NCBI RefSeq assembly: GCF_005160265.1
Contig: NZ_CP039865.1
Location: 2,318,828 to 2,382,827, forward strand
Source: Phreatobacter aquaticus
GTDB lineage: Bacteria; Pseudomonadota; Alphaproteobacteria; Rhizobiales; Phreatobacteraceae
DNA length: 64,000 nt
Reading direction: 5' to 3'
Positions within the stretch are counted from its first letter, which is position 1. Each line of letters starts with the position of its first letter. This document shows positions 13,725 through 56,549 of this stretch, in pieces. The translations under genes were made by a program, and so were the position numbers. A model generated the notes under the pieces. It was given only the letters and a program-made list of their open reading frames with translations. It was not told where the DNA came from and searched no databases.

Positions 13725-15923
13725 ATGGTCAATGCCGACGGCGCGCGGAAAATGTCCCCGAAACGGCGTAAGCCTCTGACGTGGCTCGCGCTTTTGGCTG
13801 GCGCCATCGGCATGGTGGCGGTTGACAGCATGCCGGCTTATGCCCAGTTCGGCATCAGCATCCCAGGTCTCGGCGGCCTCGGCAATCTGACCCGCGGGCG
13901 CTCCAACGTCACGCGCGGCCGCGTCCCGAATGTCGGGCGCGCACCGACGATCGGACGCGTGCCCAACATGGGCAATGTCGGCCGGATGCCCGGCGGCAAT
14001 ATCGGTCGTGGCCCCGGCAATATCGGTCGTGGGCCCGGTGATTTTGGCCGCGGCCCCGGAAATATCGGTCGTGGTCCCGGCGATTTTGGCCGCGGTCCCG
14101 GAAACATCGGTCGTGGTCCGGGCGATTTTGGCCGCGGTCCCGGAAACATCGGTCGTGGCCCCGGCGATCTTGGTCGCGGTCCTGGAAACATCGGTCGTGG
14201 CCCGGGCGATTTTGGTCGTGGTCCTGGAAACATCGGTCGCGGGCCAGGCAATATCGGTCGCGGCCCCGGGAATATCGGTCGTGGTCCTGGGAACATCGGG
14301 CGTGGGCCCGGGAACATCGGGCGCGGTCCCGGCAATATCGGACGCGGCCCAGGCGATTTCGGCCGTGGTCCTGGCAATTTCGGACGTGGTCCCGGTAACT
14401 TCGCCGGTCGTCCTCCCGGTGGTCCGGGTGGCTTCGGTTTCGGTGGCGCTGCCAATTTCGCCGGCGCTGCCGCGGCTGCGACGGCCGCCGCGATCGCCGT
14501 TCCCGCCATCACCTCCATCATCGCAAGCTCGCGCGCCGAGGCCGGCGTCTATGCCCGCGATCCCAATTATGTGCCCGGCCTGCCGATGCCGACCGAGCGC
14601 CGCTACCAATCGGGCGAGGTCCTGTTCGTCCTGAAGCCGGACGCGCCGCGCGAGACCCTGGCCCGCGTGATCGCGCGCTACAACCTGCGCCTCATCAGCG
14701 AGGAGCGGCTCGATTTCATGGGCACGGTCGTGCATCGCTACCGCGTGCCCGACCGCCAGGACGTGCCGGCGGCCATCCGCGAACTGACGCGTGACGAACA
14801 GATCGCCTATGTCCAGCCGAACTACGCATTCGACCGGCCGGATTTCCGCTTCCGGCTGCAGAGCGCCGCCAGCACGGCGGCCTCGGGCGGATCGCTGCAA
14901 TATGTCGTCGATGCCCTGCGTCTGCAGGAAGCACATCAGATGGCGCGCGGATCGCGGATCTCGATCGCGGTGATCGATTCCGGCATCGATGCAAGCCATC
15001 CGGAAATGGCTGGCCGCGTCGTGCGCTCGTTCGATGCCGTCGGTGGCCCGTTCCTGGCCCATGAGCACGGCACGGGCATGGCGGGTGCCATCGTCGCCCA
15101 TGCCCAGCTGACCGGCGTCTCGCCCGGAGCCGACATCTATGCGGTGCGCGCCTTCGCGCCGGGCCAGGCGGCGGGCGCTTCCGGCACCAGCCTTCACATC
15201 CTCAAGGCCATGGACTGGGCGATCCGCAACAATGTGCGCATCATCAATATGAGCTTTGCCGGTCCGCGCGATCCGATGATGACCCGGGCCATCCAGGTGG
15301 CCGCCGAGCGGCGCATCACCATGATCGCAGCTATGGGCAATGAGGGGCCGAATGCCCCGCCGTCCTATCCGGCGGCAGACCAGAATGTCATCGCGGTGAC
15401 CGCAACCGACCGCAACGGCAACCTGTTCGAAGCGGCAACGCGCGGCAATCACGTGTCGGTCGCCGCGCCCGGCGTCGAGGTCCTGCTGCCGGCCCCGCAG
15501 GGCGGCTACCAGATCTCGTCGGGCACCTCGGTGGCGGCTGCCCATGTCAGCGGCATCGCGGCCCTGATCCTCGAGCGGCAGCCTGATCTCGATCCGGCCG
15601 ATCTCCGCCGCATCCTGCAGGAAACCGCGCGTCATGGCGCGACCGTCAATCCGCAGCTTGGCGCAGGCGTTGCCGATCCGGTGCCAGCCATCAACGCGGC
15701 GGCCAATGCGCCGGCGCCGGGCTCCAGCACGCCGATGGCAACCGCCCCGACGCCGGGTGTCCGCTCGCCCGAGCGGGCCGATGCCCAGCCGCCCCAGCAG
15801 CAGCCGGGTCCGCGCCAGGCGATCATCCAGCCCGAACAGGCCGCGCCGCGCCCGGCGACGACCCAGCCGGGTGTGCCGGTGCCCGCCCCGCAGGCGACCT
15901 CGCCGAAGGCGACCAAGCAGTAA
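13725..15923 (+). CDS. secreted S8 subtilisin-like serine protease with GRGPG repeats
   Basis: 732 residues. Signal peptide about 10-40 (ending AYA); a basic Gly/Arg-rich region with 19 copies of GRGPG(N/D)(I/F/L) at 94-226; a hydrophobic Ala/Gly stretch about 240-272; a fervidolysin-like prodomain about 292-368; then the S8 catalytic domain. The triad is intact: D418 (AVIDSGID), H448 (HEHGTGMAG) and S602 (SSGTSVAAAH), with the oxyanion Asn in AMGNEGPN. The C-terminal 70 residues are Pro/Ala/Gln-rich. It lies 121 bases behind the anti-sigma gene on the same strand, with AAGGA before the ATG. Probably periplasmic or surface-bound and possibly part of the sigma-factor signalling. Confidence 0.92.
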   Translation: MVNADGARKMSPKRRKPLTWLALLAGAIGMVAVDSMPAYAQFGISIPGLGGLGNLTRGRSNVTRGRVPNVGRAPTIGRVPNMGNVGRMPGGNIGRGPGNIGRGPGDFGRGPGNIGRGPGDFGRGPGNIGRGPGDFGRGPGNIGRGPGDLGRGPGNIGRGPGDFGRGPGNIGRGPGNIGRGPGNIGRGPGNIGRGPGNIGRGPGNIGRGPGDFGRGPGNFGRGPGNFAGRPPGGPGGFGFGGAANFAGAAAAATAAAIAVPAITSIIASSRAEAGVYARDPNYVPGLPMPTERRYQSGEVLFVLKPDAPRETLARVIARYNLRLISEERLDFMGTVVHRYRVPDRQDVPAAIRELTRDEQIAYVQPNYAFDRPDFRFRLQSAASTAASGGSLQYVVDALRLQEAHQMARGSRISIAVIDSGIDASHPEMAGRVVRSFDAVGGPFLAHEHGTGMAGAIVAHAQLTGVSPGADIYAVRAFAPGQAAGASGTSLHILKAMDWAIRNNVRIINMSFAGPRDPMMTRAIQVAAERRITMIAAMGNEGPNAPPSYPAADQNVIAVTATDRNGNLFEAATRGNHVSVAAPGVEVLLPAPQGGYQISSGTSVAAAHVSGIAALILERQPDLDPADLRRILQETARHGATVNPQLGAGVADPVPAINAAANAPAPGSSTPMATAPTPGVRSPERADAQPPQQQPGPRQAIIQPEQAAPRPATTQPGVPVPAPQATSPKATKQ
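14004..14402 (+). repeat. 19 tandem 21-bp units encoding GRGPG(N/D)(I/F/L)
   Basis: In-frame tandem repeat inside the subtilase gene. Units alternate NI and DF in the first part (a 42-bp higher-order period), then become six NI units in a row, then DF, NF, NF. Synonymous third-base changes among units show it is not brand new, but the uniform middle block suggests recent expansion or homogenisation. Confidence 0.95.
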
Positions 15924-43337: not shown

Positions 43338-43379
43338 GGGCGCTCACGTCCCGCAGAAGCGCTGGTTGATTGAAGACGT

Positions 43380-43507
43380 CCTTCGAGGCTCGCTGACGCT
43401 CGTACCTCAGGATGTGGGTGGAGACGGTGTGCCGGAAGGCGGCCTGCCCGCCAGCGGAATCCAACCTGTCCTCATCCTGAGGTGCGAGCGTTAGCGAGCC
43501 TCGAAGG
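43380..43507. repeat. 128-bp inverted-repeat (MITE-like) element
   Basis: 35-base terminal arms at 43380-43414 and 43473-43507 pair with two mismatches; they start ccttcgaggctcgct. No coding capacity. Distinct in sequence from the gggaga-type REP family. It fills much of the 309-base gap between the carbamoyltransferase and the next membrane protein. Confidence 0.85.
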
Positions 43508-43646
43508 ACCTCTTGTTGTCGGAGCTCAGACCGCCGGAAATCGCGGCACCTCCGTCACCCCCGAAACATTCGCCCTCGCTTCCGCGCCGTCGTCCAGACA
43601 CAATGAACTGGCGAAATCGCTCATGTTCACTGCCCATGGAGCGCCG

Positions 43647-44213
43647 ATGCGCCGCTATCTGCTTCGCCCGCTGATCGTCGTCGCGGCGATCATCATCCTG
43701 ATCGAGACTTGGATCTGGGACCATCTTGGTCCCTGGGTGCGCCGCTTCGTCGAGATCCTGCCGTTCAAGGCACTGAAACAGGCGATCCATGATGGCATCG
43801 AGCGGCTGCCGCCCTATGCGACGCTGGCCGTCTTCGCCATTCCGGTCGCCGTCCTGTTCCCGTTCAAGCTCGCGGCGCTGGCGCTGATCGCCAGCGGCCA
43901 CCTCATTCTCGGCGCCCTGATCTTCTGCGCCGCCAAGGTAGTGGGCGTCGGCGTTGCCGCCTTCCTGTTCGAGGCTTGCAAGCCGAAGCTCCTGCAGATC
44001 CCGCTCTTCGTGCGGCTCTACGACATGTGGAACCGCTGGGTGGTCTGGGCGCACCACTATATCGACCCGGTCAAGAAGCGGATCGCCGGCTATACCCGCC
44101 TCGTGCGCGGCGGCCGCTCGGGCCGCTCCTTTCGCCTGCTCATGCGCTTCCGCCGCGTGCACCGCGAGCGCCGGGCGATGATGGCGCGGACCGCTGCAAC
44201 GGGGAATGCGTAG
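43647..44213 (+). CDS. putative inner-membrane protein of unknown function
   Basis: 188 residues. Two or three membrane helices are visible (LIVVAAIIILIETWIW; LAVFAIPVAVLFPFKLAALALIA; ILGALIFCAAKVVGVGVAAFL), then a basic C-terminus (YIDPVKKRIAGYTRLVRGGRSGRSFRLLMRFRRVHRERR). GGAG lies 6 bases before the ATG at 43647; the longer frame upstream overlaps the inverted repeat. No family recognised with confidence. The basic tail could face the cytosol. Confidence 0.72.
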   Translation: MRRYLLRPLIVVAAIIILIETWIWDHLGPWVRRFVEILPFKALKQAIHDGIERLPPYATLAVFAIPVAVLFPFKLAALALIASGHLILGALIFCAAKVVGVGVAAFLFEACKPKLLQIPLFVRLYDMWNRWVVWAHHYIDPVKKRIAGYTRLVRGGRSGRSFRLLMRFRRVHRERRAMMARTAATGNA

Positions 44214-44251
44214 CGGGCAAAGGGGCCTTCGAGTGTTAGTCCGGGCTGAGA

Positions 44252-44395
44252 CCTTCACCTCTCCCCGACGGGGAGAGGTCGGCGCCCGTTAGGGCGACGG
44301 GAGAGGGGGCGAGCTGCTGTTCGGTGAGAGTGATCCCCCTCTCCCGCCCTCGGCTTCGCCTCGGTCGACCTCTCCCCGTCGGGGCGAGGTGAAGG
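44252..44395. repeat. 144-bp REP-type doublet with 30-bp terminal inverted repeats
   Basis: Outer arms ccttcacctctccccgacgg... and its reverse complement pair over 30 bases with one mismatch. Each arm itself contains a self-complementary core (ctccccgacggggag). Lies between convergent genes. Confidence 0.85.
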
Positions 44396-44456
44396 GTGCG
44401 CGGGCTGACATGTCTCCCTCCAGGGGAGGGTGCAACGGCGCTCCGCCTGAGGCCCA

Positions 44457-45434
44457 TCACGCCCGGGGATGCGCGCTCTCGTAGACCTTCATCAGTGCTG
44501 CCGTATCGACCGCCGTATAGACCTGCGTCGTCGAGAGTGACGCATGGCCCAGGAGTTCCTGGATCGACCGCAGATCGCCGCCGCGCCCCAACAGATGGGT
44601 GGCGAAGGAATGGCGCAGCGCATGCGGCGTGGCGCTTGCCGGTAGCCCCAGCGCGCCCCGCAGCCGTTCCATGGCGAGCTGAATGATGCGCGGCGAGAGC
44701 TGCCCGCCCTTGACGCCGACGAACAGCGGATCGTCCGGCCCGAGGCTCCACGGGCAGAGCTTGCGGTAGTCGTCGATCGCGGTCGCGACCTTGGCAATCA
44801 CCGGCACCTGCCGGGTCTTCTGGCCCTTGCCGAGGACGGTCAGCTGCCCCTGCTCGCCTGGCTTCGGCGCGTCCTTCTGTCTGAGCCCAAGCGCCTCCGA
44901 AATGCGCAGGCCCGAGCCATAGAGCAGGGCCAGCACGGCGGAGTCGCGGGCAATCACCCAGGGGGCCGTATCCTCGTGGTCGCGCGCTTCTGCAGACACC
45001 ACCTGACGGGCTGCGCCGATGGCCAGCGGGCGGGGCAGGCGGGTGCCCGCCTTCGGCGTGCGCACGGCGGCAAAGGCGGCCATGCGGCCCTCGCCCTCGC
45101 GTTCCAGAAAGCGGGAGAAGGAGCGCACCGCCGCCAGCGCCCGGCCGATCGAGCGGGCTTCCAGCCCATCGGCGCGGCGGCGGGCCAGAAAGGCACGGAC
45201 ATCGCGCGGGTGCAGCCCGGCCATGGCGGCCAGCGAGACATTCTCGCCGAGATGGCTGGCGAGAAAGCCGAGAAAGACCCGGACATCGCGGCCATAGGCC
45301 TCCAGCGTCTTGGGCGATAGCCGCTTCTCGGTGCCGAGATAGCGCAGCCAGCGGCCGACGGCTGCCACCATGTCGGCGGCGGCGCCGGGCATCAGGAGAT
45401 CGGCGGGGGCGGAGAAATCGGCAGGGCTGGCCAT
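44457..45434 (-). CDS. xerC: tyrosine recombinase XerC
   Basis: 325 residues. N-terminal SAM-like core-binding domain (about 20-110: VGRWLRYLGTEKRLSPKTLEAYGRDVRVFLGFL) and C-terminal catalytic domain with Arg in LLYGSGLRISEALGL, His-Arg in TPHALRHSFATHLL, His in QELLGHASLSTTQ and nucleophile Tyr in VYTAVD. With XerD it resolves chromosome dimers at dif. A separate xerD is not in this window. It stands alone between REP elements. Confidence 0.93.
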   Translation of the reverse strand: MASPADFSAPADLLMPGAAADMVAAVGRWLRYLGTEKRLSPKTLEAYGRDVRVFLGFLASHLGENVSLAAMAGLHPRDVRAFLARRRADGLEARSIGRALAAVRSFSRFLEREGEGRMAAFAAVRTPKAGTRLPRPLAIGAARQVVSAEARDHEDTAPWVIARDSAVLALLYGSGLRISEALGLRQKDAPKPGEQGQLTVLGKGQKTRQVPVIAKVATAIDDYRKLCPWSLGPDDPLFVGVKGGQLSPRIIQLAMERLRGALGLPASATPHALRHSFATHLLGRGGDLRSIQELLGHASLSTTQVYTAVDTAALMKVYESAHPRA

Positions 45435-45544
45435 GAGGGGATCATGGCAGGGGAGAGTTCACGGGCGGTGAATGGGGGAGGGGCGAGGCAGGGGCGAGGC
45501 AGGGGTGCCCAACGAATGATTGTACTTCCCGCAGGCGGAGACGT

Positions 45545-45717
45545 CCCCTCTCCCCGCATGCGGGGAGAGGGTTAGGGTGAGGGGCCGTTCGGAGACTAGG
45601 GGATTGATCGGCGACGAGGGGCGACGTGCCGGCGAGCGGCTGCATTCAGCGTGGCCCCTCACCCGCCCTCGGCCTTGCCTCGGGCGACCTCTCCCCGCAG
45701 GCGGGGAGAGGTAAGGG
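45545..45717. repeat. REP-type palindromic doublet
   Basis: Left head 45545-45584 (cccctctccccgcatgcgggg... ending gttagggtgagggg) and right part 45655-45717 (cccctcacccgccctcgg... ctctccccgcaggcggggag) in inverted relation. It fills the 331-base gap between xerC and bfr; no gene there. Confidence 0.8.
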
Positions 45718-45765
45718 TATGCGCTGTCGGAAAACCGATACGCGACGAACGCGCTGTCCCCGCCC

Positions 45766-46254
45766 TCAGTGCTCGTCGCCGCCGAGCTTGCCCATATGCT
45801 TCTGCGCATAGAGCTGCTCGCCGACCTGGGCCATCAGCTCAAGCTGGGTCTCGAGGAAGTCGATATGGCCTTCCTCATCGGTCATCAGCGCGATGAACAG
45901 GTCGCGCGAGGGATAGTCCTTCACCGTCTCGCAATAGGCCGCCGCCTCCTGGTAGAGCGCACGAGCACCGATCTCGGCATTCAGGTCGGCCTGGATGACC
46001 TCCTTCACCGTCTGGCCGATCTGCAGCGGATCGAGCACCTGCAGGTTCGGATGGCCTTCCAGGAACAGGATCCGGTCGATGAACTTGTCGGCGTGCTCCA
46101 TCTCCTCGATGGATTCCTTGCGCCAGAACTTGGCGAGGTCCTTGAAGCCCCAATTGTCCAGCATGCGGAAATGCAGCCAGTACTGGCTGACCGCGGTCAG
46201 CTCGCTGCGAAGGCCCTTGTTCAGGTACTCGATGACCTTCTTGTCGCCCTTCAT
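45766..46254 (-). CDS. bfr: bacterioferritin
   Basis: 162 residues, full length. [36 protein letters not shown] carries the first ferroxidase Glu, [29 protein letters not shown] contains the E-x-x-H pair and the heme-ligand Met, and [18 protein letters not shown] the second E-x-x-H site. It stores iron as a 24-mer with heme at subunit interfaces. The 28 residues encoded upstream are not conserved, so the ATG at 46254 is used. bfd lies 109 bases upstream on the same strand. Confidence 0.95.
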
Positions 46255-46363
46255 CGCTGGCCTCCATGTCTGACAATGGCCGGCATCCTGGCCGGCAGGG
46301 GAAGCCAGATTCCAACCATTCCAGACAGGAAAAGGCAAGGCGGCAGCAGCCGGTCGTCAGGCC

Positions 46364-46615
46364 TTATTCGGCGGCGATCAGCACCGGCTCGCCGTGCGCA
46401 TGGCCGGCGCATTCGCCGACCGGGCAGGCGGCGCAACCCTGTGACACGCCGGCTTCGCGCAGGATGGCGCGGATGGTACGGGCGCAACGGCCGCAATTCG
46501 GGCTGCACCCCAGGCAGGCATAGACCTCGCCGACGGCGCGCGGGCAGTCCGGCCCATCGCCCAGGCAGGCGCGGATGTCGTGGTCACTCAGCACATTGCA
46601 ATGACAGACGATCAC
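46364..46615 (-). CDS. bfd: bacterioferritin-associated ferredoxin
   Basis: 83 residues. VIVCHCNVLSDHDIRACL and VYACLGCSPNCGRCARTIRAIL give the four-Cys [2Fe-2S] pattern (CHC ... C-x-x-C) of Bfd, which reduces bacterioferritin to release iron. Extra Cys and His near the C-terminus (GCAACPVGECAGHAHG) are an unusual extension relative to the short E. coli Bfd. The GTG at 46615 is chosen because GGAG lies 8 bases before and it matches the family start. Paired with bfr. Confidence 0.9.
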   Translation of the reverse strand: MIVCHCNVLSDHDIRACLGDGPDCPRAVGEVYACLGCSPNCGRCARTIRAILREAGVSQGCAACPVGECAGHAHGEPVLIAAE

Positions 46616-46857
46616 CGGATGTCTCCGCCCCAACCGCTGGACTGCATGGAACAGATCCGATCGAGCCATCTTGATGTAGAACAAAAGATACGTGATTTCA
46701 ATGGGTTGAGGCAATATTGGAGCCATTCCAGAGATGTGCCTAAGTGTCAGCGCGGCTGGCGCAATTCGCAGTTTGCAGAATGATTCCAGTCTGCGCGGGT
46801 CCCATCCCCCGCGCTCCGCAATTCCCTTCGCGGGCCTCCCGTGCTTTGTCTGCCGGA

Positions 46858-49035
46858 ATGACAGCGCCGCGCTACGCCGATGTCCTGATTCCCGTCGCGA
46901 TCGACCGCCCCTACAGCTACCGCGTGCCGGCGGAGCTGGAACTGGGGCCGGGCGATGTCGTCTCCGTGCCGCTCGGCAACCGCACGGCGCTCGGCGTCGT
47001 CTGGCAGCTGCGCGACGATCCCGGCGGCGTCTCGCACAACCGCCTGAAGGACGTGCTGGCCCGCTACGAGGTGCCGGCGGTGCCGGCCGCCATCCGCCGT
47101 CTGGTCGACTGGATCGCCGACTACACGCTCTCGCCGCGCGGCATGGTGCTGCGCATGGCGGTGCGCGATCCCGACCATCTGGCGCCGCCCCGCCCGCGCA
47201 TCGGCGTGCGGCTCACCGGCCAGCCGCCATCGCGGCCGACATCGGCGCGTACCAAGCTGATGGCGCTGATGGCCGATGGTCTGGCGCGTGCCAAGGGCGA
47301 GGCTGCCAAAGAAGCCGGTGTCTCCATCGGCGTGGTCGACGGGCTCATCGATGATGGCGCACTGGAGGCGATCACCCTGCCGCCGGAATCGGTGGCGGAG
47401 ACGCTCGATCCCGATCACGCCCGGCCCGCCCTCAATCCCGCACAGCACGAGGCGGCACAGGTGCTGGCCGATGGCGTCGCCGCCCGCGCCTTCCAGGTCT
47501 ATCTGGTCGATGGCGTCACCGGCTCGGGCAAGACCGAGGTCTATTTCGAGGCCGTCGCCGAGGCCATCCGCCAGGGCCGCCAGACGCTGATCCTGGTGCC
47601 GGAAATCGCGCTGACCACCCAGTTCCTCGACCGCTTCGCCGAGCGCTTCGGCCATCGCCCCGCCGCCTGGCATTCCGGCGTCGGACAGGCGCGGCGCGGC
47701 CGGGTCTGGACGGGTGTTGCCGCCGGCGAAGTGCCGGTGGTGATCGGCGCGCGCTCGGCGCTGTTCCTGCCGTTCCAGGATCTCGGCCTCATCATCGTCG
47801 ATGAGGAGCACGAGGGCGCCTACAAGCAGGACGATGGCGTCCATTATCACGCCCGCGACATGGCGGTGGTGCGCGGCCGGATGGAGGCGATCCCGGTCGT
47901 TCTCGCCTCCGCCACGCCCTCGCTCGAATCCCGCGTCAATGCCGACAAGGGGCGCTACCGCCGCCTCATCCTGCCCGAGCGCTTCGGCGGCCGCGAGATG
48001 CCGGCCATTTCCACCGTCGACATGAAGGTGCAGGGCCCGCCGCGCGGCCGCTGGATCTCACCGGCGCTCGAACTCGCCATGCGCCGCACGCTGGAGGAGA
48101 AGGAGCAGTCGCTCATCTTCCTGAACCGGCGCGGCTACGCACCGCTCACGCTCTGCCGCACCTGCGGCGAACGCATCCAGTGCCCGAACTGCTCGGCCTG
48201 GCTGGTCGATCACCGCTTCCGGCGCCGGCTCGTCTGCCACCATTGCGGCTTCTCCATGCCGCCCCTCGAACATTGCCCGAAATGCGATGCGGTCGATAGT
48301 TTCGTCGCCTGCGGCCCGGGCGTCGAGCGCATGGCGGAGGAATGCGCGACGCTGTTCCCCGAGGCGCGGCTGCTGGTTCTCTCCTCCGACATGGCCGGCG
48401 GCATCGAACGCATCCGCCAGGAGATCGAGGCCGTCGCCAAAGGCGAGGCCGACATCGTCATCGGCACCCAGCTCATCGCCAAGGGCCACAATTTCCCGCA
48501 TCTGGCTTTGGTTGGCGTGGTCGATGCCGATCTCGGCCTGCAGAACGGCGATCCCAGAGCCGGCGAGCGCACGTTCCAGCTGCTCCAGCAGGTGGTCGGC
48601 CGCGCGGGCCGCGCCAAGGACGGCTCGCGCGCGCTGATCCAGACGCACAGGCCCGACCATCCGATCATCGATGCCATCGTGAAGGGCGACCGCGAGGCCT
48701 TCTACGAGGCCGAGATCGCCATGCGCGAGGAGGCGCAATTGCCGCCGCATGGGCGTCTCGCAGCGCTTGTCGTCTCGGCCGAGGCGCAATCCGACGCCAT
48801 GGCCTATGCCCGCATGCTGGTGCGCTCGTCGCCGGCCTCGAAGGATGTGAAGGTCCTGGGCCCGGCGGAAGCGCCGCTGGCGCTGGTGCGCGGCCGCCAC
48901 CGCATGCGCATTCTCGCGCGCTCGCCCCGCGCCTTCGATCTGTCGGGCTGGCTGCGCGACTGGCTGTCGAAGGTCGAGGCGCCGAGAGGGAACGTACGGC
49001 TGGAGATCGACGTCGATCCGCAGAGTTTTCTTTAG
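46858..49035 (+). CDS. priA: primosomal helicase PriA
   Basis: 725 residues. N-terminal DNA-binding part (PRYADVLIPVAIDRPYSYRVPAELELGPGDVVSVPLG); Walker A VDGVTGSGKTEVYFEA; DEEH box LIIVDEEHEGAYKQDDGVHYHARD; zinc-binding insertion with eight Cys (CRTCGERIQCPNC, CHHCGF, CPKC); helicase motifs VIGTQLIAKGHNFPHLALVGVVDAD and QVVGRAGRAKDG. It restarts stalled replication forks. The ATG at 46858 fits the family; the 38-residue longer frame upstream has no ribosome site. Confidence 0.96.
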   Translation: MTAPRYADVLIPVAIDRPYSYRVPAELELGPGDVVSVPLGNRTALGVVWQLRDDPGGVSHNRLKDVLARYEVPAVPAAIRRLVDWIADYTLSPRGMVLRMAVRDPDHLAPPRPRIGVRLTGQPPSRPTSARTKLMALMADGLARAKGEAAKEAGVSIGVVDGLIDDGALEAITLPPESVAETLDPDHARPALNPAQHEAAQVLADGVAARAFQVYLVDGVTGSGKTEVYFEAVAEAIRQGRQTLILVPEIALTTQFLDRFAERFGHRPAAWHSGVGQARRGRVWTGVAAGEVPVVIGARSALFLPFQDLGLIIVDEEHEGAYKQDDGVHYHARDMAVVRGRMEAIPVVLASATPSLESRVNADKGRYRRLILPERFGGREMPAISTVDMKVQGPPRGRWISPALELAMRRTLEEKEQSLIFLNRRGYAPLTLCRTCGERIQCPNCSAWLVDHRFRRRLVCHHCGFSMPPLEHCPKCDAVDSFVACGPGVERMAEECATLFPEARLLVLSSDMAGGIERIRQEIEAVAKGEADIVIGTQLIAKGHNFPHLALVGVVDADLGLQNGDPRAGERTFQLLQQVVGRAGRAKDGSRALIQTHRPDHPIIDAIVKGDREAFYEAEIAMREEAQLPPHGRLAALVVSAEAQSDAMAYARMLVRSSPASKDVKVLGPAEAPLALVRGRHRMRILARSPRAFDLSGWLRDWLSKVEAPRGNVRLEIDVDPQSFL

Positions 49036-49079
49036 AGGGCAGGGCGGGATGAGAGGCAACGGTCGGTGGGGAGATCGGG

Positions 49080-49241
49080 CCCCTCACCCTAACCCTCTCC
49101 CCGCAGGCGGGGAGAGGGGATGTCTCCGCTTCCAGCGCATTCGCCTGCGCACATGATCTGGTGTCGAGAGCAGCGCGCCGGCTGAGCCGGGCGGCCTCTG
49201 TTCCCTCTCCCCGCCTGCGGGGAGAGGGCTAGGGTGAGGGG
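49080..49241. repeat. 162-bp MITE/REP doublet, copy 1 flanking the C13 gene
   Basis: Terminal inverted repeats of about 39 bp (cccctcaccctaaccctctc... and its complement with one mismatch), each containing the palindrome ctccccgcaggcggggag. The element is about 93 percent identical by eye to the one at 50941-51102 and has the same length and orientation. Confidence 0.9.
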
Positions 49242-49262
49242 CGAGCCACGGCGCTCGCCAAG

Positions 49263-50714
49263 CTACTGGCTCACGTTTGCGCCGATCCGGTTGCTGGCGA
49301 CAAGCCGGACCCATTCGTCATCCGTCCCGATCACCGCGCCGAGCCGGGTGCGCAGTCGGCTTCCCACATGGATCTGCGGCTGTGATGGAGTGAGCTTCTG
49401 CTCCGCCTCCCATTCGCCGACCAGCCTGCGCGCCACGGTGAAAGCGCCGATCAGGCTGTCGCTCTGCCGCAAGCCATTCTCCAGCAAGGCCTCGCCGAAA
49501 TAGGTCAGGCTGCGCGTGTCGGAGCAACCGAACGAGTTCCGTTCGGCCGATGACGCCGTCATGATCATCGTGTTTTCATCGGCGAGCACCGGCACGAACG
49601 TGCCCGAATAGCAGGATGACACGATGAGGATGCGGTTGCGGATGCCGGCCTCGTCGAGGGCTGTCTTGAGGCTTTCGGGCGACAGCGTCTCATAGACCAG
49701 CGCGCCGAACTCCAGCGCGAAGCCGTCGCGATTGCCATGGGATGTCATGGCGAGGACCAGCACGTCCCGTTCGGTATCCATGCGGCGGGCAATGCCTTGC
49801 AGCGCCTGAGCGAGATTCTGGATGCTGGCAATGGGCCGGCTTGCGCTCGTGCCGGGATTGTTGATCAGGGTCATGGTGCGCCCCGTCGCCCGCAGCCTGA
49901 CGGCCAGAGCGGCAACCGCCTGCTCGGCCTCGTTGAGGAAGACATTCTGTCTAGCCCATCCGGCAATCCCCAGCACGAAGACATTGGGGGCCGATGGGTC
50001 GACGGGCGCCAGGCCATCGAGCGCTGCGGTCATCAGCGCGGGCTGGGCAAGCTTCGCCTGCGCCTGCCGGCGCATATAGTCCCGCCTCTGCTCCGCCATG
50101 GCCTCGGTCTGCTGCGGCTGTGACAGACGGCTGGCAAACTCCCAGACATTGGCAGTCGAACGGTCGAAATCGCTGCCCACAAAGGCTGGCGAATAAGGGA
50201 AGGCCAGGGCCGCGGCCAGACTGGCGACGCTCAGCCCGAGCGCGCGGAGCGTCGGTCGCCGCGAGCCTGCGCCATGCAGGAAGATGCGGCGCGTCGCGAC
50301 GAAGGCAAGTGTCAGCAGGCCAAGCGCGGCGGCAGCGCTGGCGATCAGGCCGGCGATCGCGGGCCAGCCGGGCAGCCCAAGCAGGGGCAGCGCGAGCAGA
50401 ACCACCAGCGTCGCTGCTACCGTCTGGGCGAGCAGCACGATGAGCAGATGCCAGGTTACGCGCGCCGTCGGATCCCGTCCGGCAAAGGCCAGGGTGATGG
50501 CGACCAGCACGGCCACCCAGGCGATCAGGGCGTTCAGGCCATACATGTCCCAGGTGCCATCGGCACCAGATGTTGCCCAGTCGATGAGAAGAAGGCAGGC
50601 GATCATTGTGCATGTGACGGCCACCAGGCGAAACGGCGAGCGCCGGGCGGGCGGTAGAAGCGTCTTGGCGGTAACGAGGCGATATCCTGCCGCGATGGTC
50701 TGTCCAATACCCAT
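49263..50714 (-). CDS. membrane-anchored C13-family (legumain/caspase-like) peptidase
   Basis: 483 residues. N-terminal half has about five membrane helices (30-50, 62-80, 88-112, 118-142, 155-170); the C-terminal half (from about 240) is a caspase-fold domain: NVFVLGIAGWARQNVFLNEAEQAV, catalytic His in LAMTSHGNRDGFAL and catalytic Cys in LIVSSCYSGTFVPVLAD, followed by MIMTASSAERNSFGCSD. This matches bacterial C13 cysteine peptidases. The catalytic domain probably faces the periplasm or cytosol depending on helix number. Substrate unknown. It lies between two near-identical 162-bp repeats. Confidence 0.85.
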   Translation of the reverse strand: MGIGQTIAAGYRLVTAKTLLPPARRSPFRLVAVTCTMIACLLLIDWATSGADGTWDMYGLNALIAWVAVLVAITLAFAGRDPTARVTWHLLIVLLAQTVAATLVVLLALPLLGLPGWPAIAGLIASAAAALGLLTLAFVATRRIFLHGAGSRRPTLRALGLSVASLAAALAFPYSPAFVGSDFDRSTANVWEFASRLSQPQQTEAMAEQRRDYMRRQAQAKLAQPALMTAALDGLAPVDPSAPNVFVLGIAGWARQNVFLNEAEQAVAALAVRLRATGRTMTLINNPGTSASRPIASIQNLAQALQGIARRMDTERDVLVLAMTSHGNRDGFALEFGALVYETLSPESLKTALDEAGIRNRILIVSSCYSGTFVPVLADENTMIMTASSAERNSFGCSDTRSLTYFGEALLENGLRQSDSLIGAFTVARRLVGEWEAEQKLTPSQPQIHVGSRLRTRLGAVIGTDDEWVRLVASNRIGANVSQ

Positions 50715-50940
50715 GTCGCGCGCTCCCTTGCTGTCAGCTACGCACCATCGTCATGGGTATGCGTAAATAAAAAACAGCAAGAAGATGGTTGAGGTTTCAC
50801 GAAAACAGAATCTCAAACGTCTTGTTTTTCGATCTATATTGGTTGTCGTCGGGCGAAATTATGCAACCTCAAGTATTTTCCGGCGACGTCATGCCGATAG
50901 GGCAGGGCTGACGTGTGGATCATCCGATAGCGACATCAGG

Positions 50941-51102
50941 CCCCTCACCCTAACCCTCTCCCCGCAGGCGGGGAGAGGGGATGTCTCCGCTCCCGTCGCG
51001 TCAGCCTGCGCACATGATCTGGTGTCGAGAACCGCACGCTGGCTGAGCCTGGCGGCCTCTGTTCCCTCTCCCCGCCTGCGGGGAGAGGGCTAGGGTGAGG
51101 GG
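50941..51102. repeat. 162-bp MITE/REP doublet, copy 2 flanking the C13 gene
   Basis: Same length and orientation as 49080-49241, with about 11 differences, all in the middle; the terminal arms are identical between copies. It occupies part of the 426-base gap 50715-51140; the rest is an AT-rich stretch (50760-50890) probably containing the C13 promoter. Confidence 0.9.
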
Positions 51103-51140
51103 CCACTGAGCCACGAAAACGAGGCGCGCCCCGCCTTCTT

Positions 51141-52010
51141 TCAGCCAGCCTTCTCGTCCGTCATCTCTCCCGGCCAGGCAAACCTGGCCCAGTCCGGCTT
51201 CACCACCCGAACCGCAATTCCACCAGCCGTCAGCGGCTCGCCCGCGGTCATCGCATCGGCCACCTTGTCGAGGCGCAGTTTCGCCAGCGCCCGGCCGCTT
51301 CGCACCGAGCCCAGATGGCCGATGAGCCTGTCGCCGGCCACCACGTCGATGCCCTCCAGCGGCTCCGGCCCGTCATAGCCGATGGGCACGATGCGGGTGC
51401 GCGCGGTGCCGCGATGCTGCATGCGGCTCACCACTTCCTGGCCGACATAGCAGCCCTTGGTGAAGGACACGCCGTGGAGCTGGTCCATGTCGGTCTCGTG
51501 CGGGAAGGCGTCGCCATAGGCGAAGTCGCGCCCGCCCTCCGGGATGCCGATCGCCACGCGATGGGCGTCGTAATCCGCGCCCGACGCGTTCTCCACCGGC
51601 AGCGGCTGGAACATCCGCCAGCCAAGCGCGGGATGGCGCGGATCGCGGTAGAGCAGCCCGCCGACCTCCGGCGCAGTCTCGCCGCCCCAGAAGGCTGTGA
51701 CGCCCAACTGGTCCGACTGGTCCTCCACGATCACCTTGGCGCGCAGCTTGTAAAAGCCGAGCTTGCGCGCAAGGTCCGCCGCCAGCACGCGCTTCACGTC
51801 GAGGAGATAGCCGCCGCCGATCGCGTCGGGCGCGCGCACCACCAGAAAATCGACGATGATCTTGCCCTGGGGCGTCAGCAGCGCGCCGAAGCCCGCCTCG
51901 CCCTCGGCGAGAGCCTCGACATCGCAGGTGACGAGGCCCTGCAGGAAGTGCCCGGCATCCTCGCCGATCACCCTCACCACGCCGCGTTCGCCGAGATGGG
52001 CCTGCTGCAT
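51141..52010 (-). CDS. ygfZ: folate-dependent iron-sulfur assembly protein YgfZ
   Basis: 289 residues of the GcvT-like YgfZ/IBA57 family. Diagnostic motif KGCYVGQEVVSRMQHRGTARTRI with the functional Cys; the N-terminus reads GVVRVIGEDAGHFLQGLVTCDVEAL and GALLTPQGKIIVDFLV. It helps repair or build certain [4Fe-4S] enzymes with tetrahydrofolate. The ATG at 52010 (MQQAHLGERG) fits the family; the longer frame upstream runs into the inverted repeat. Monocistronic, divergent from pyrC. Confidence 0.93.
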   Translation of the reverse strand: MQQAHLGERGVVRVIGEDAGHFLQGLVTCDVEALAEGEAGFGALLTPQGKIIVDFLVVRAPDAIGGGYLLDVKRVLAADLARKLGFYKLRAKVIVEDQSDQLGVTAFWGGETAPEVGGLLYRDPRHPALGWRMFQPLPVENASGADYDAHRVAIGIPEGGRDFAYGDAFPHETDMDQLHGVSFTKGCYVGQEVVSRMQHRGTARTRIVPIGYDGPEPLEGIDVVAGDRLIGHLGSVRSGRALAKLRLDKVADAMTAGEPLTAGGIAVRVVKPDWARFAWPGEMTDEKAG

Positions 52011-52061
52011 TGTTGCGTTCCCTGTCAGTGTCTTACGTGCTTTCCCGCAACCTAGCACACA

Positions 52062-52182
52062 CGTCACCCCCGGCGAGCCCGCGAGGGCGAGGGAAGGGGG
52101 GCCAGGAATGCTGCGGCCGGACAACGCAATCGAAAGTCTGGATCCCCTTCCCTCGGCGCCTTGCGCCTCGCCGGGGATGACG
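52062..52182. repeat. 121-bp inverted-repeat (MITE-like) element
   Basis: Arms beginning cgtcacccccggcgag and ending ctcgccggggatgacg pair imperfectly over about 38 bases. Different family from the ctccccg elements. It lies in the 311-base divergent gap between ygfZ and pyrC, where no gene is seen. Confidence 0.75.
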
Positions 52183-52321
52183 ATTGTGCTCGTCTGGCGT
52201 CATGCGGACGAACGGCCATGCACTGCAGCCGCCATCTTGGCACCCTTGCCGTTCTCCGACATAAGCGTGTCGCCGCGCGGCTCAAGCCCCAAGACCATTC
52301 ATCCGACCGGAGACCTGCCCC

Positions 52322-53929: not shown

Positions 53930-54607
53930 ATGCGCCGCATTCTCCTCTCCGCCGCTTCCGCCTTGGCTCTCGTGACAGGCGCCCAGGCTGCCGATCTCGG
54001 CGTCCGCCGGGTCGAGGTCCCCTCGGCCATCATGGCATCGGGGTTCAGCTGGACCGGTTTCTACGCTGGTGTGCACGCCGGTTATGGCTGGGGCCGAAGC
54101 ACGGGCACCAACCCCTTCGGCGGTCAGTTTCCGTTGAGCACCTCCGGCGCGCTGTTGGGCGCGCAGGTCGGATACAATTATCAGATCAACAGCCTCGTTC
54201 TGGGTGTGGAGGCTGACCTCGCCTACACCACGATCGGCGGGCACACCGCCCTTGGTCTGACCGGGCGTAACAACATGCTTGGATCGCTTCGCGCCCGTGC
54301 CGGCTTTGCAGTCGACAGGTCGCTTTTCTACGTGACCGGCGGTCTCGGCATTCAGACTGCGTCTTTCACCCAGGGTGCTGGGGCGGCCGAGAAGTACACG
54401 CGCTTCGGCTGGGTTCTGGGCGCTGGCTATGAATATGCGATCACCAACAATTGGACCGTCAAGGCTGAGTACATGTACTATAACTTCGGTACACGGACTC
54501 TTGGGCCGATCTACGCCGGCACCCTTCGCTCTGATGGTCACACCGTCAAGCTCGGCGTGAACTACCTGTTCTCGACCGGCCCGTCGGCGGTCGTCGCCCG
54601 CTACTGA
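53930..54607 (+). CDS. Omp31-like outer-membrane beta-barrel protein, paralogue 1
   Basis: 225 residues. Signal peptide 1-20 (ALVTGAQA); the mature protein is an eight-stranded barrel type (FSWTGFYAGVHAGYGWG, LLGAQVGYNYQINSLVLGVEADLAYT, LRARAGFAVDRSLFYVTGGLG, TVKAEYMYYNFG, VKLGVNYLFST) ending in a terminal aromatic Tyr needed for BAM assembly. Known relatives are Omp25/Omp31 hemin- or surface proteins of Brucella. First of three tandem paralogues, each with its own terminator. GAGG before the ATG. Confidence 0.9.
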   Translation: MRRILLSAASALALVTGAQAADLGVRRVEVPSAIMASGFSWTGFYAGVHAGYGWGRSTGTNPFGGQFPLSTSGALLGAQVGYNYQINSLVLGVEADLAYTTIGGHTALGLTGRNNMLGSLRARAGFAVDRSLFYVTGGLGIQTASFTQGAGAAEKYTRFGWVLGAGYEYAITNNWTVKAEYMYYNFGTRTLGPIYAGTLRSDGHTVKLGVNYLFSTGPSAVVARY

Positions 54608-54643
54608 GCCCATCCGGCGGCTTGCCGCCCGGACATTTGCCAG

Positions 54644-54670
54644 CAAGCCCGGCCCGCAAGGCCGGGCTTG
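54644..54670 (+). terminator. rho-independent terminator of porin 1
   Basis: 11-bp perfect stem (caagcccggcc / ggccgggcttg) with a 5-base loop followed by ttgcattt. The same hairpin recurs after the other two porins. Confidence 0.7.
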
Positions 54671-54886
54671 TTGCATTTGGCATGACCGGCTACCTCGTCG
54701 TCATGTCGGGTGGGCAGCCGCGCGCCTGCCGAGGGCAGCGGTGCGCGGGCACTGTTGCGGTCGTGCAACATTGCCAACGGGTTTTGCTCCCGTAGGGGCA
54801 ACCTGACTTGTCGCGGAAACGGGACTCTTTGTAAGTGACGGTCAGCCGAAACTGACCGTGCCCTAGTCCATCGAAGTGAGATACCC

Positions 54887-55591
54887 ATGAAGAAGCTTGC
54901 ATTCGCTGCCATCGCCGCCGCCGCCATGATGGGCCAGGCCCAGGCCGCCGATCTCGGCGTGCGCCGCGTCGCCGTTCCCGCCGCCATCGCGGCGCCGGTG
55001 TTCAACTGGACCGGCTTCTATGCTGGTCTGAATGTCGGTGTCGGCATTGCCAACACCAATTTCTCGGTGCTCGCACCTGGCTTCCCCGGTTCCGGCAGCG
55101 GCTTGGTTGGCGGCGCGCAGATTGGCTACAACCACCAGATCAACAACTTCGTCATCGGCGTCGAAGGCGACCTCGGCTATTTCGGCGTGTCGCGCTCGGC
55201 CGTTGTTGGCGGCGCCACCGTCAACTGGAAGACCACCTGGGATGCCTCGCTGCGCGCCCGCGCCGGCGTCGCGATCGACCGTACGCTTCTCTACGTGACG
55301 GGCGGCGTGGCCTTTGCCGATCTCACCCTTCGTCAGACCCCCGCCGGTGGTGCGACGGTGTCCGGCAGCCAGACCCGCGTGGGCTGGACGCTGGGTGCCG
55401 GCATCGAGCACGCGCTCACCCAGAACTGGACGGTTCGCGCCGAATATCTCTATGCCAACTATGGCAGCAAGATCATCCGCAGCAACAATGGCGGCGTGAC
55501 GGACCCGGTTAGCCTGCAGGAGCACAAGGTCCGCATCGGCGTGAACTACCTGTTCTCGACCGGCCCCTCGGCGGTCGTCGCCCGCTACTGA
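54887..55591 (+). CDS. Omp31-like outer-membrane beta-barrel protein, paralogue 2
   Basis: 234 residues, with a signal peptide (KKLAFAAIAAAAMMGQAQA) and the same barrel plan as its neighbours: NWTGFYAGLNVGVGIANTNF, GAQIGYNHQINNFVIGVEGDLGYFGVS, LRARAGVAIDRTLLYVTGGVAFADL, WTVRAEYLYANYG, HKVRIGVNYLFSTGPSAVVARY. It is closer to paralogue 3 than to paralogue 1. It ends with Tyr like the others. Own terminator 39 bases downstream. A weak gtgaga precedes the ATG. Confidence 0.92.
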   Translation: MKKLAFAAIAAAAMMGQAQAADLGVRRVAVPAAIAAPVFNWTGFYAGLNVGVGIANTNFSVLAPGFPGSGSGLVGGAQIGYNHQINNFVIGVEGDLGYFGVSRSAVVGGATVNWKTTWDASLRARAGVAIDRTLLYVTGGVAFADLTLRQTPAGGATVSGSQTRVGWTLGAGIEHALTQNWTVRAEYLYANYGSKIIRSNNGGVTDPVSLQEHKVRIGVNYLFSTGPSAVVARY

Positions 55592-55630
55592 GACCATCCG
55601 GCGGCACATTGCCGCCTCCGACATTGCCAT

Positions 55631-55657
55631 CAAGCCCGGTCCACAAGGCCGGGCTTG
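55631..55657 (+). terminator. rho-independent terminator of porin 2
   Basis: Stem caagcccgg / ccgggcttg plus a wobble and further pairs, followed by ttgcattt; same design as the other porin terminators. Confidence 0.65.
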
Positions 55658-55832
55658 TTGCATTTGGGCAGGCTAACAGCGGCAGCGCGAAGCGACGAAG
55701 GCCACCTGTTGCGGCGTTGTCACAAGCCGCGGCAAAGAGCAACCCCGCGTCAGATGCCCTAGCGGAATCACTTCGCCTGAATAAAGTACACGTCTGCATT
55801 CATCATGAACCCCTTCATCTCCTGGACAAGTT

Positions 55833-56549
55833 ATGAAGAAGATCGCTCTGGGCGTGCTGACCGCCGCCGCTCTTGCCGGCAACGCTCAGGCAGCCGATCT
55901 CGGCGTTCGCCGCGTCGCCGTTCCCGCCGCAATCGCGGCGCCGGTGTTCAACTGGACCGGCTTCTATGCCGGTCTGAATATCGGCCTCGGTATCGCCAAC
56001 ACGAATTTCGGCGTTGTGATCCCCGGTGCTCCCAGCTCGGGCTCGGGGCTCGTTGCTGGCGGCCAGATCGGCTACAATCATCAGATCAACAACGTTGTCC
56101 TCGGCGTTGAAGCTGATCTCGGATATTTCGGCGTGTCGCGCACTGCGGCCATCGTTGCCGTCGGCGGCCCGACGACGATTTTCACATGGAAGACGACCTG
56201 GGACGCCTCGCTGCGCGCACGCGCCGGCGTCGCTGTCGATCGCGCCCTGCTCTACGTGACGGGCGGTGTGGCCTTTGCCGATATTGGCATCCGCCAGACC
56301 TTGCTCGCTGTCACCGCGACCGGCGGGCAGACCCGCGTGGGTTGGACGCTCGGCGCCGGCCTTGAATATGCCGTGACCCAGAACTGGACCATTCGCGGCG
56401 AGTATCTGTACGCCAATTACGGCCGCAAGGGCATTACGGCCAATACAGGTGTCACGAGCCCCCCGGTCAGCCTGCAGGAGCACAAGGTCCGCATCGGCCT
56501 GAACTACCTGTTCTCGACCGGCCCCTCGGCGGTCGTCGCCCGCTACTGA
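55833..56549 (+). CDS. Omp31-like outer-membrane beta-barrel protein, paralogue 3
   Basis: 238 residues. Signal peptide KKIALGVLTAAALAGNAQA; barrel strands NWTGFYAGLNIGLGIANTNFGV, GGQIGYNHQINNVVLGVEADLGYFGVS, LRARAGVAVDRALLYVTGGVAFADI, WTIRGEYLYANYG, HKVRIGLNYLFST. The last 14 residues, FSTGPSAVVARY among them, are the same in all three paralogues. No strong ribosome site (tggacaagtt before ATG). Third of the tandem array. Confidence 0.92.
   Translation: MKKIALGVLTAAALAGNAQAADLGVRRVAVPAAIAAPVFNWTGFYAGLNIGLGIANTNFGVVIPGAPSSGSGLVAGGQIGYNHQINNVVLGVEADLGYFGVSRTAAIVAVGGPTTIFTWKTTWDASLRARAGVAVDRALLYVTGGVAFADIGIRQTLLAVTATGGQTRVGWTLGAGLEYAVTQNWTIRGEYLYANYGRKGITANTGVTSPPVSLQEHKVRIGLNYLFSTGPSAVVARY

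Follow-up and report, generated by a model that had tools for sequence, protein, structure and literature searches.

Paired REP-like doublets around a C13-family peptidase gene at the variable priA-ygfZ junction of Phreatobacter

Between the convergent genes priA and ygfZ of the freshwater bacterium Phreatobacter sp. NMCR1094 (genome of 4,974,952 bp; PMC6742797), a gene for a C13-family cysteine peptidase lies between two near-identical inverted-repeat elements, E1 and E2, in the order priA> E1 <C13 E2 <ygfZ (Table 1). The initial annotation of this 64,000-nucleotide stretch (the window) saw in this arrangement the outline of a composite mobile unit or a cassette made by recombination, raising the question of whether the repeats brought the gene to the site. 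The reading preferred here, at a probability of about 0.7, is that E1 and E2 are an old REP-like pair, of a family whose doublets lie 3' of genes, around a peptidase gene that was gained or lost by ordinary recombination.

Table 1. Features of the priA-ygfZ region, in window positions
Feature	Position	Strand	Details
Less regular member of the E1/E2 repeat family	45535-45712	.	3.4 kb upstream
priA, primosomal helicase (left neighbour)	46744-49035	+	present in 12/12 genus genomes
Spacer, priA stop codon to E1	49036-49079	+	44 bp
E1, REP-like inverted repeat	49080-49241	+	arms 49080-49118 and 49203-49241, 84-bp centre; sits 3' of both priA and the C13 gene
C13-family cysteine peptidase	49263-50714	-	483 aa; PF01650, 4.9e-20
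E2, same build as E1	50941-51102	+	arms 50941-50979 and 51064-51102; 38 bp past the ygfZ stop codon, 226 bp 5' of the C13 start
ygfZ/CAF17-like folate-binding protein (right neighbour)	51141-52124	-	present in 12/12 genus genomes

The two elements have the boundaries first described for them, a common length of 162 bp and a direct orientation, and the estimate of about 11 central differences proved exact, with all 11 falling within element positions 52-110. The 39-bp termini, annotated as identical and inverted, are identical between E1 and E2, while within each element 38 of the 39 bases pair (mismatch at position 13/150); the smaller palindrome reported for each terminus (CCCTCTCCCCGC..GCGGGGAGAGGG) is present in every arm. 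Across the 84 bp between the arms, the 11 differences amount to 13%. As RNA, each element is predicted to fold into a single long hairpin (E1, -124.6 kcal/mol; E2, -123.3 kcal/mol; z about -10 for both), well beyond chance, with 0 of 200 shuffles matching these energies. A count of compensatory changes under both folds gave no reason to infer selection on an inner structure: E2's fold holds one two-sided difference (positions 63/100) with E1 unpaired at 4/65, and E1's fold holds none with E2 unpaired at 4/66. A search of Rfam with positions 44000-52200 gave zero matches at E up to 1.

E1 and E2 are members of a dispersed family of REP doublets (RIME/REPIN-like) in NMCR1094. The genome-wide search proposed at the outset returned 96 pieces matching E1, and a scan of 34 stretches located 71 arm-like places, weak ones counted, including 19 inward-facing arm pairs (doublets). 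The less regular member upstream of E1 has an arm (45535-45586) that is 96% complementary to the left arm of E1. Across the family the arms are conserved and the centres unrelated, with the exception of the E1/E2 pair: the 190 pairs formed by 20 doublets had a median centre identity of 0.47 (the better of two orientations), compared to 0.86 for E1/E2 and 0.63 for the next best pair, in which both members contain a second nested repeat. Gene context was surveyed with a home-made hexamer predictor for 16 of the 19 inward pairs (leaving out 2694879, 3208941, and 4840337). All but one of these doublets are clear of predicted genes (15/16; 1578423 overlaps a predicted ORF), 13 of 16 have a predicted stop codon within 50 bp, and 8 of 16 sit between convergent genes, compared to 9 of 56 adjacent gene pairs in the window (raw counts). 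Matches to E1 occur in 7 of the 12 genus genomes, the host's own among them, and the 13 full copies read from relatives measure 146-155 bp.

Other repeats occur in the window. A second palindromic family (CCTCATCCTGAGG..CCTCGAAGGAC) at 43373-43514 is present elsewhere in the NMCR1094 genome, is nested in two doublets (1236255 and 2058548), and also occurs at the priA-ygfZ gap of a relative (G005). A 21-bp tandem repeat at 13953-14487 (17 registers, 62-90% alike to the reference copy) probably encodes a 7-residue protein repeat. Three tandem genes at 53930-56549 encode related proteins with outer-membrane-protein-like ends, and each is followed by one of three near-identical, GC-rich hairpins (54637, 55624, and 56582).

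The family resembles REPINs, REP doublets that form a hairpin (PMC3116915), in that E1 and E2 are inverted pairs of a REP-like palindrome, complementary at 38/39 arm positions, with a predicted long hairpin and with dispersed, extragenic copies. It differs from REPINs in that the family centres vary from copy to copy, GTAG and CTAC are absent from both 39-bp arms (by eye), and NMCR1094 lacks a RAYT. The search for the Y1_Tnp domain of such transposases, one of the follow-ups initially suggested, gave 0 matches in NMCR1094 and was positive in 5 of 14 control genomes; within the genus the domain occurs in 1 of 12 genomes (G011), which has no E1 match. RAYT copying of E1 and E2 is therefore unlikely, and RAYT-driven REPIN copying was ruled out on the absence of Y1_Tnp from the host and its single occurrence in the genus. 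The likeness to RIMEs, named in PMC2573895 as Rhizobium-specific intergenic mosaic elements, is that of intergenic palindromic repeats of Rhizobiales and was drawn with RIME1/RIME2 by description only (further literature: PMC2267715, PMC3733652). Similar arms were found in 324 rhizobial plasmid records (Rhizobium, 127; Sinorhizobium, 82), including a 128-bp family match between convergent genes on S. meliloti pSymB.

The peptidase has four N-terminal hydrophobic segments and a C13 domain with a His/Cys dyad in the motifs SHG (His326) and SCYSG (Cys368); at each of the two positions at most one of 15 aligned rows departs from the conserved residue, the row from G003 being misframed. The gene is scattered in its distribution, with C13 found in 2 of the 12 genus genomes (NMCR1094 and G003) and, across the order, in 17 of 397 sampled genomes (both genus members counted) from 10 of 141 genera. 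Matches outside the genus are 31-45% identical, and neither priA nor ygfZ was found near C13 at any of 17 searched loci outside the genus (flank up to 1.5 kb). A search of a genome-contig collection with C13 found no relative, and solved structures contained no match to it with E of 0.001 or less.

Comparison of the priA-ygfZ junction across the genus (NMCR1094, G000; eleven further genomes, G001-G011) recovered the site without the peptidase that the initial annotation had suggested seeking. priA and ygfZ are adjacent without C13 in G001, G002, G005, G006, G008, G009, G010, G011, and on contig C310 of G003; about 23 kb separates them in G004 and G007. The gap holds one doublet of another subtype and with another centre in G002, G006, G008, G010, and G003-C310. 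In G005 it is occupied by a different inverted repeat, and in G001, G009, and G011 it is a spacer of 8-28 bp. The gene together with both repeats throughout the genus, the pattern initially linked to old fixed repeats, was not seen. G003 is a mixed MAG of 480 contigs with both filled and unfilled versions of the site. Its filled allele, on C459, is a contig-edge fragment covering the priA side only, where a short gap after priA is followed directly by C13 with no doublet, after which the contig ends. The two priA ends agree at 95% of 645 aligned positions, so G003 may combine two strains from one population with different versions of the site. The priA matches on C459 (L037) and C310 (L167) are each in two pieces near query codon 720, a break that may reflect either misassembly or a genuine lesion. 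The PriA tree does not place NMCR1094 and G003 as sisters, so both a gain of C13 and an ancestral C13 with about five losses stand. In the narrow literature covered, on the Phreatobacter genome and its repeats, no report of a priA-C13-ygfZ locus was found.

Because the centres of E1 and E2 are far more alike than those of the next best pair, the comparison indicates that one element arose as a copy of the other or was converted by it. Recent copying, initially suggested from their high similarity, is not supported: the arms are conserved across the whole genome family, so that their identity is uninformative on recency, and the 13% divergence of the centres would place the copying further back. 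Likeness falls sharply at the element edge, with the left flanks about 66% alike at best compared to 87% in the centre. The spacer left of E1 and the bases left of E2 align with a 10-mer in common, a score reached at 0.0008 of random places, and the right flanks have only an 8-mer in common (a score reached at 0.35 of random places). The left flanks are the top of 496 flank pairs, yet score 31.0 compared to 30.5 for an unrelated pair; flank homology, striking against random places, was accordingly downgraded once the flanks of other elements served as the control. Since likeness is confined to the element and the flanks barely beat unrelated ones, copying or conversion of the element alone is favoured over a large duplication.

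The cassette reading, in part still viable, holds that one doublet with C13, circular or linear, entered a resident priA-ygfZ doublet by a single crossover and generated direct repeats, and that a crossover of E1 with E2 would remove C13 and return the site to a single doublet. The direct orientation and common centre of E1 and E2 suit it, as do the occurrence of C13 in so few genus genomes and the single-doublet junctions without C13 in five relatives. However, the doublets of those relatives, being of another subtype and centre, are not footprints of such a crossover, C13 is present in G003 without the priA-side doublet, and the diverged centres argue against a recent event. Moreover, no second C13 exists in the NMCR1094 genome and plasmid C13 matches are distant (37-45% identity across half or less of the protein), leaving this route unlikely. 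A segmental duplication of the priA-downstream spacer (44 bp plus the element) with C13 between the copies, possibly as tandem copies of spacer and C13 with one C13 later lost, draws on the left-flank alignment, but the 0.5-point margin over control flanks, the weaker likeness of the flanks than of the centre, and the short match on the right make it quite improbable. A composite transposon, with E1 and E2 as mobile ends jointly moving C13, has in its favour only the outline, also that of a MITE-flanked gene, of one gene with a matching, directly oriented inverted-repeat element on each side, and was rejected as very improbable: the C13 ORF is the only supported gene between the elements and no transposase gene is present there, no target-site duplication borders E1, E2, or the unit as a whole (no flank match, 1-6 bp by eye), C13 and the unit are single-copy, Y1_Tnp is absent from the genome, and C13 in G003 occupies the same site without the priA-side element.

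Under the preferred reading, an old doublet pair with C13 turned over by ordinary recombination, doublets of this family lie just downstream of genes, and several relatives have a single doublet between the convergent priA and ygfZ. In NMCR1094, C13 lies between the two 3' ends, with E1 after priA and E2 after ygfZ. The centre shared by E1 and E2 might stem from homologous recombination between neighbouring doublets through their near-identical arms, or from a local duplication; as the arms are nearly the same family-wide, arm exchange could move a centre without a transposase. C13 would have been gained, or retained amid losses elsewhere, via ordinary chromosomal recombination at a variable site, and the repeats would not be its carriers. 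Against this reading, no other adjacent doublet pair among those compared shares a centre, which means that conversion anchored in the arms is not widespread in NMCR1094, and the slight left-flank similarity of E1 and E2 would suit a larger segmental duplication. Any role of the doublets would probably be that of stable hairpins at the 3' ends of transcripts.

That near-identical REP arms provide portable homology through which neighbouring doublets recombine, allowing centre swaps and gene insertion or deletion at convergent junctions without a transposase, is a broader and decidedly doubtful proposal. Overall, the locus carries a caution, as flanking REP-like doublets can mimic a composite mobile unit though they are common 3'-end repeats, and the priA-ygfZ junction offers a small natural experiment in accessory-gene turnover between convergent housekeeping genes.
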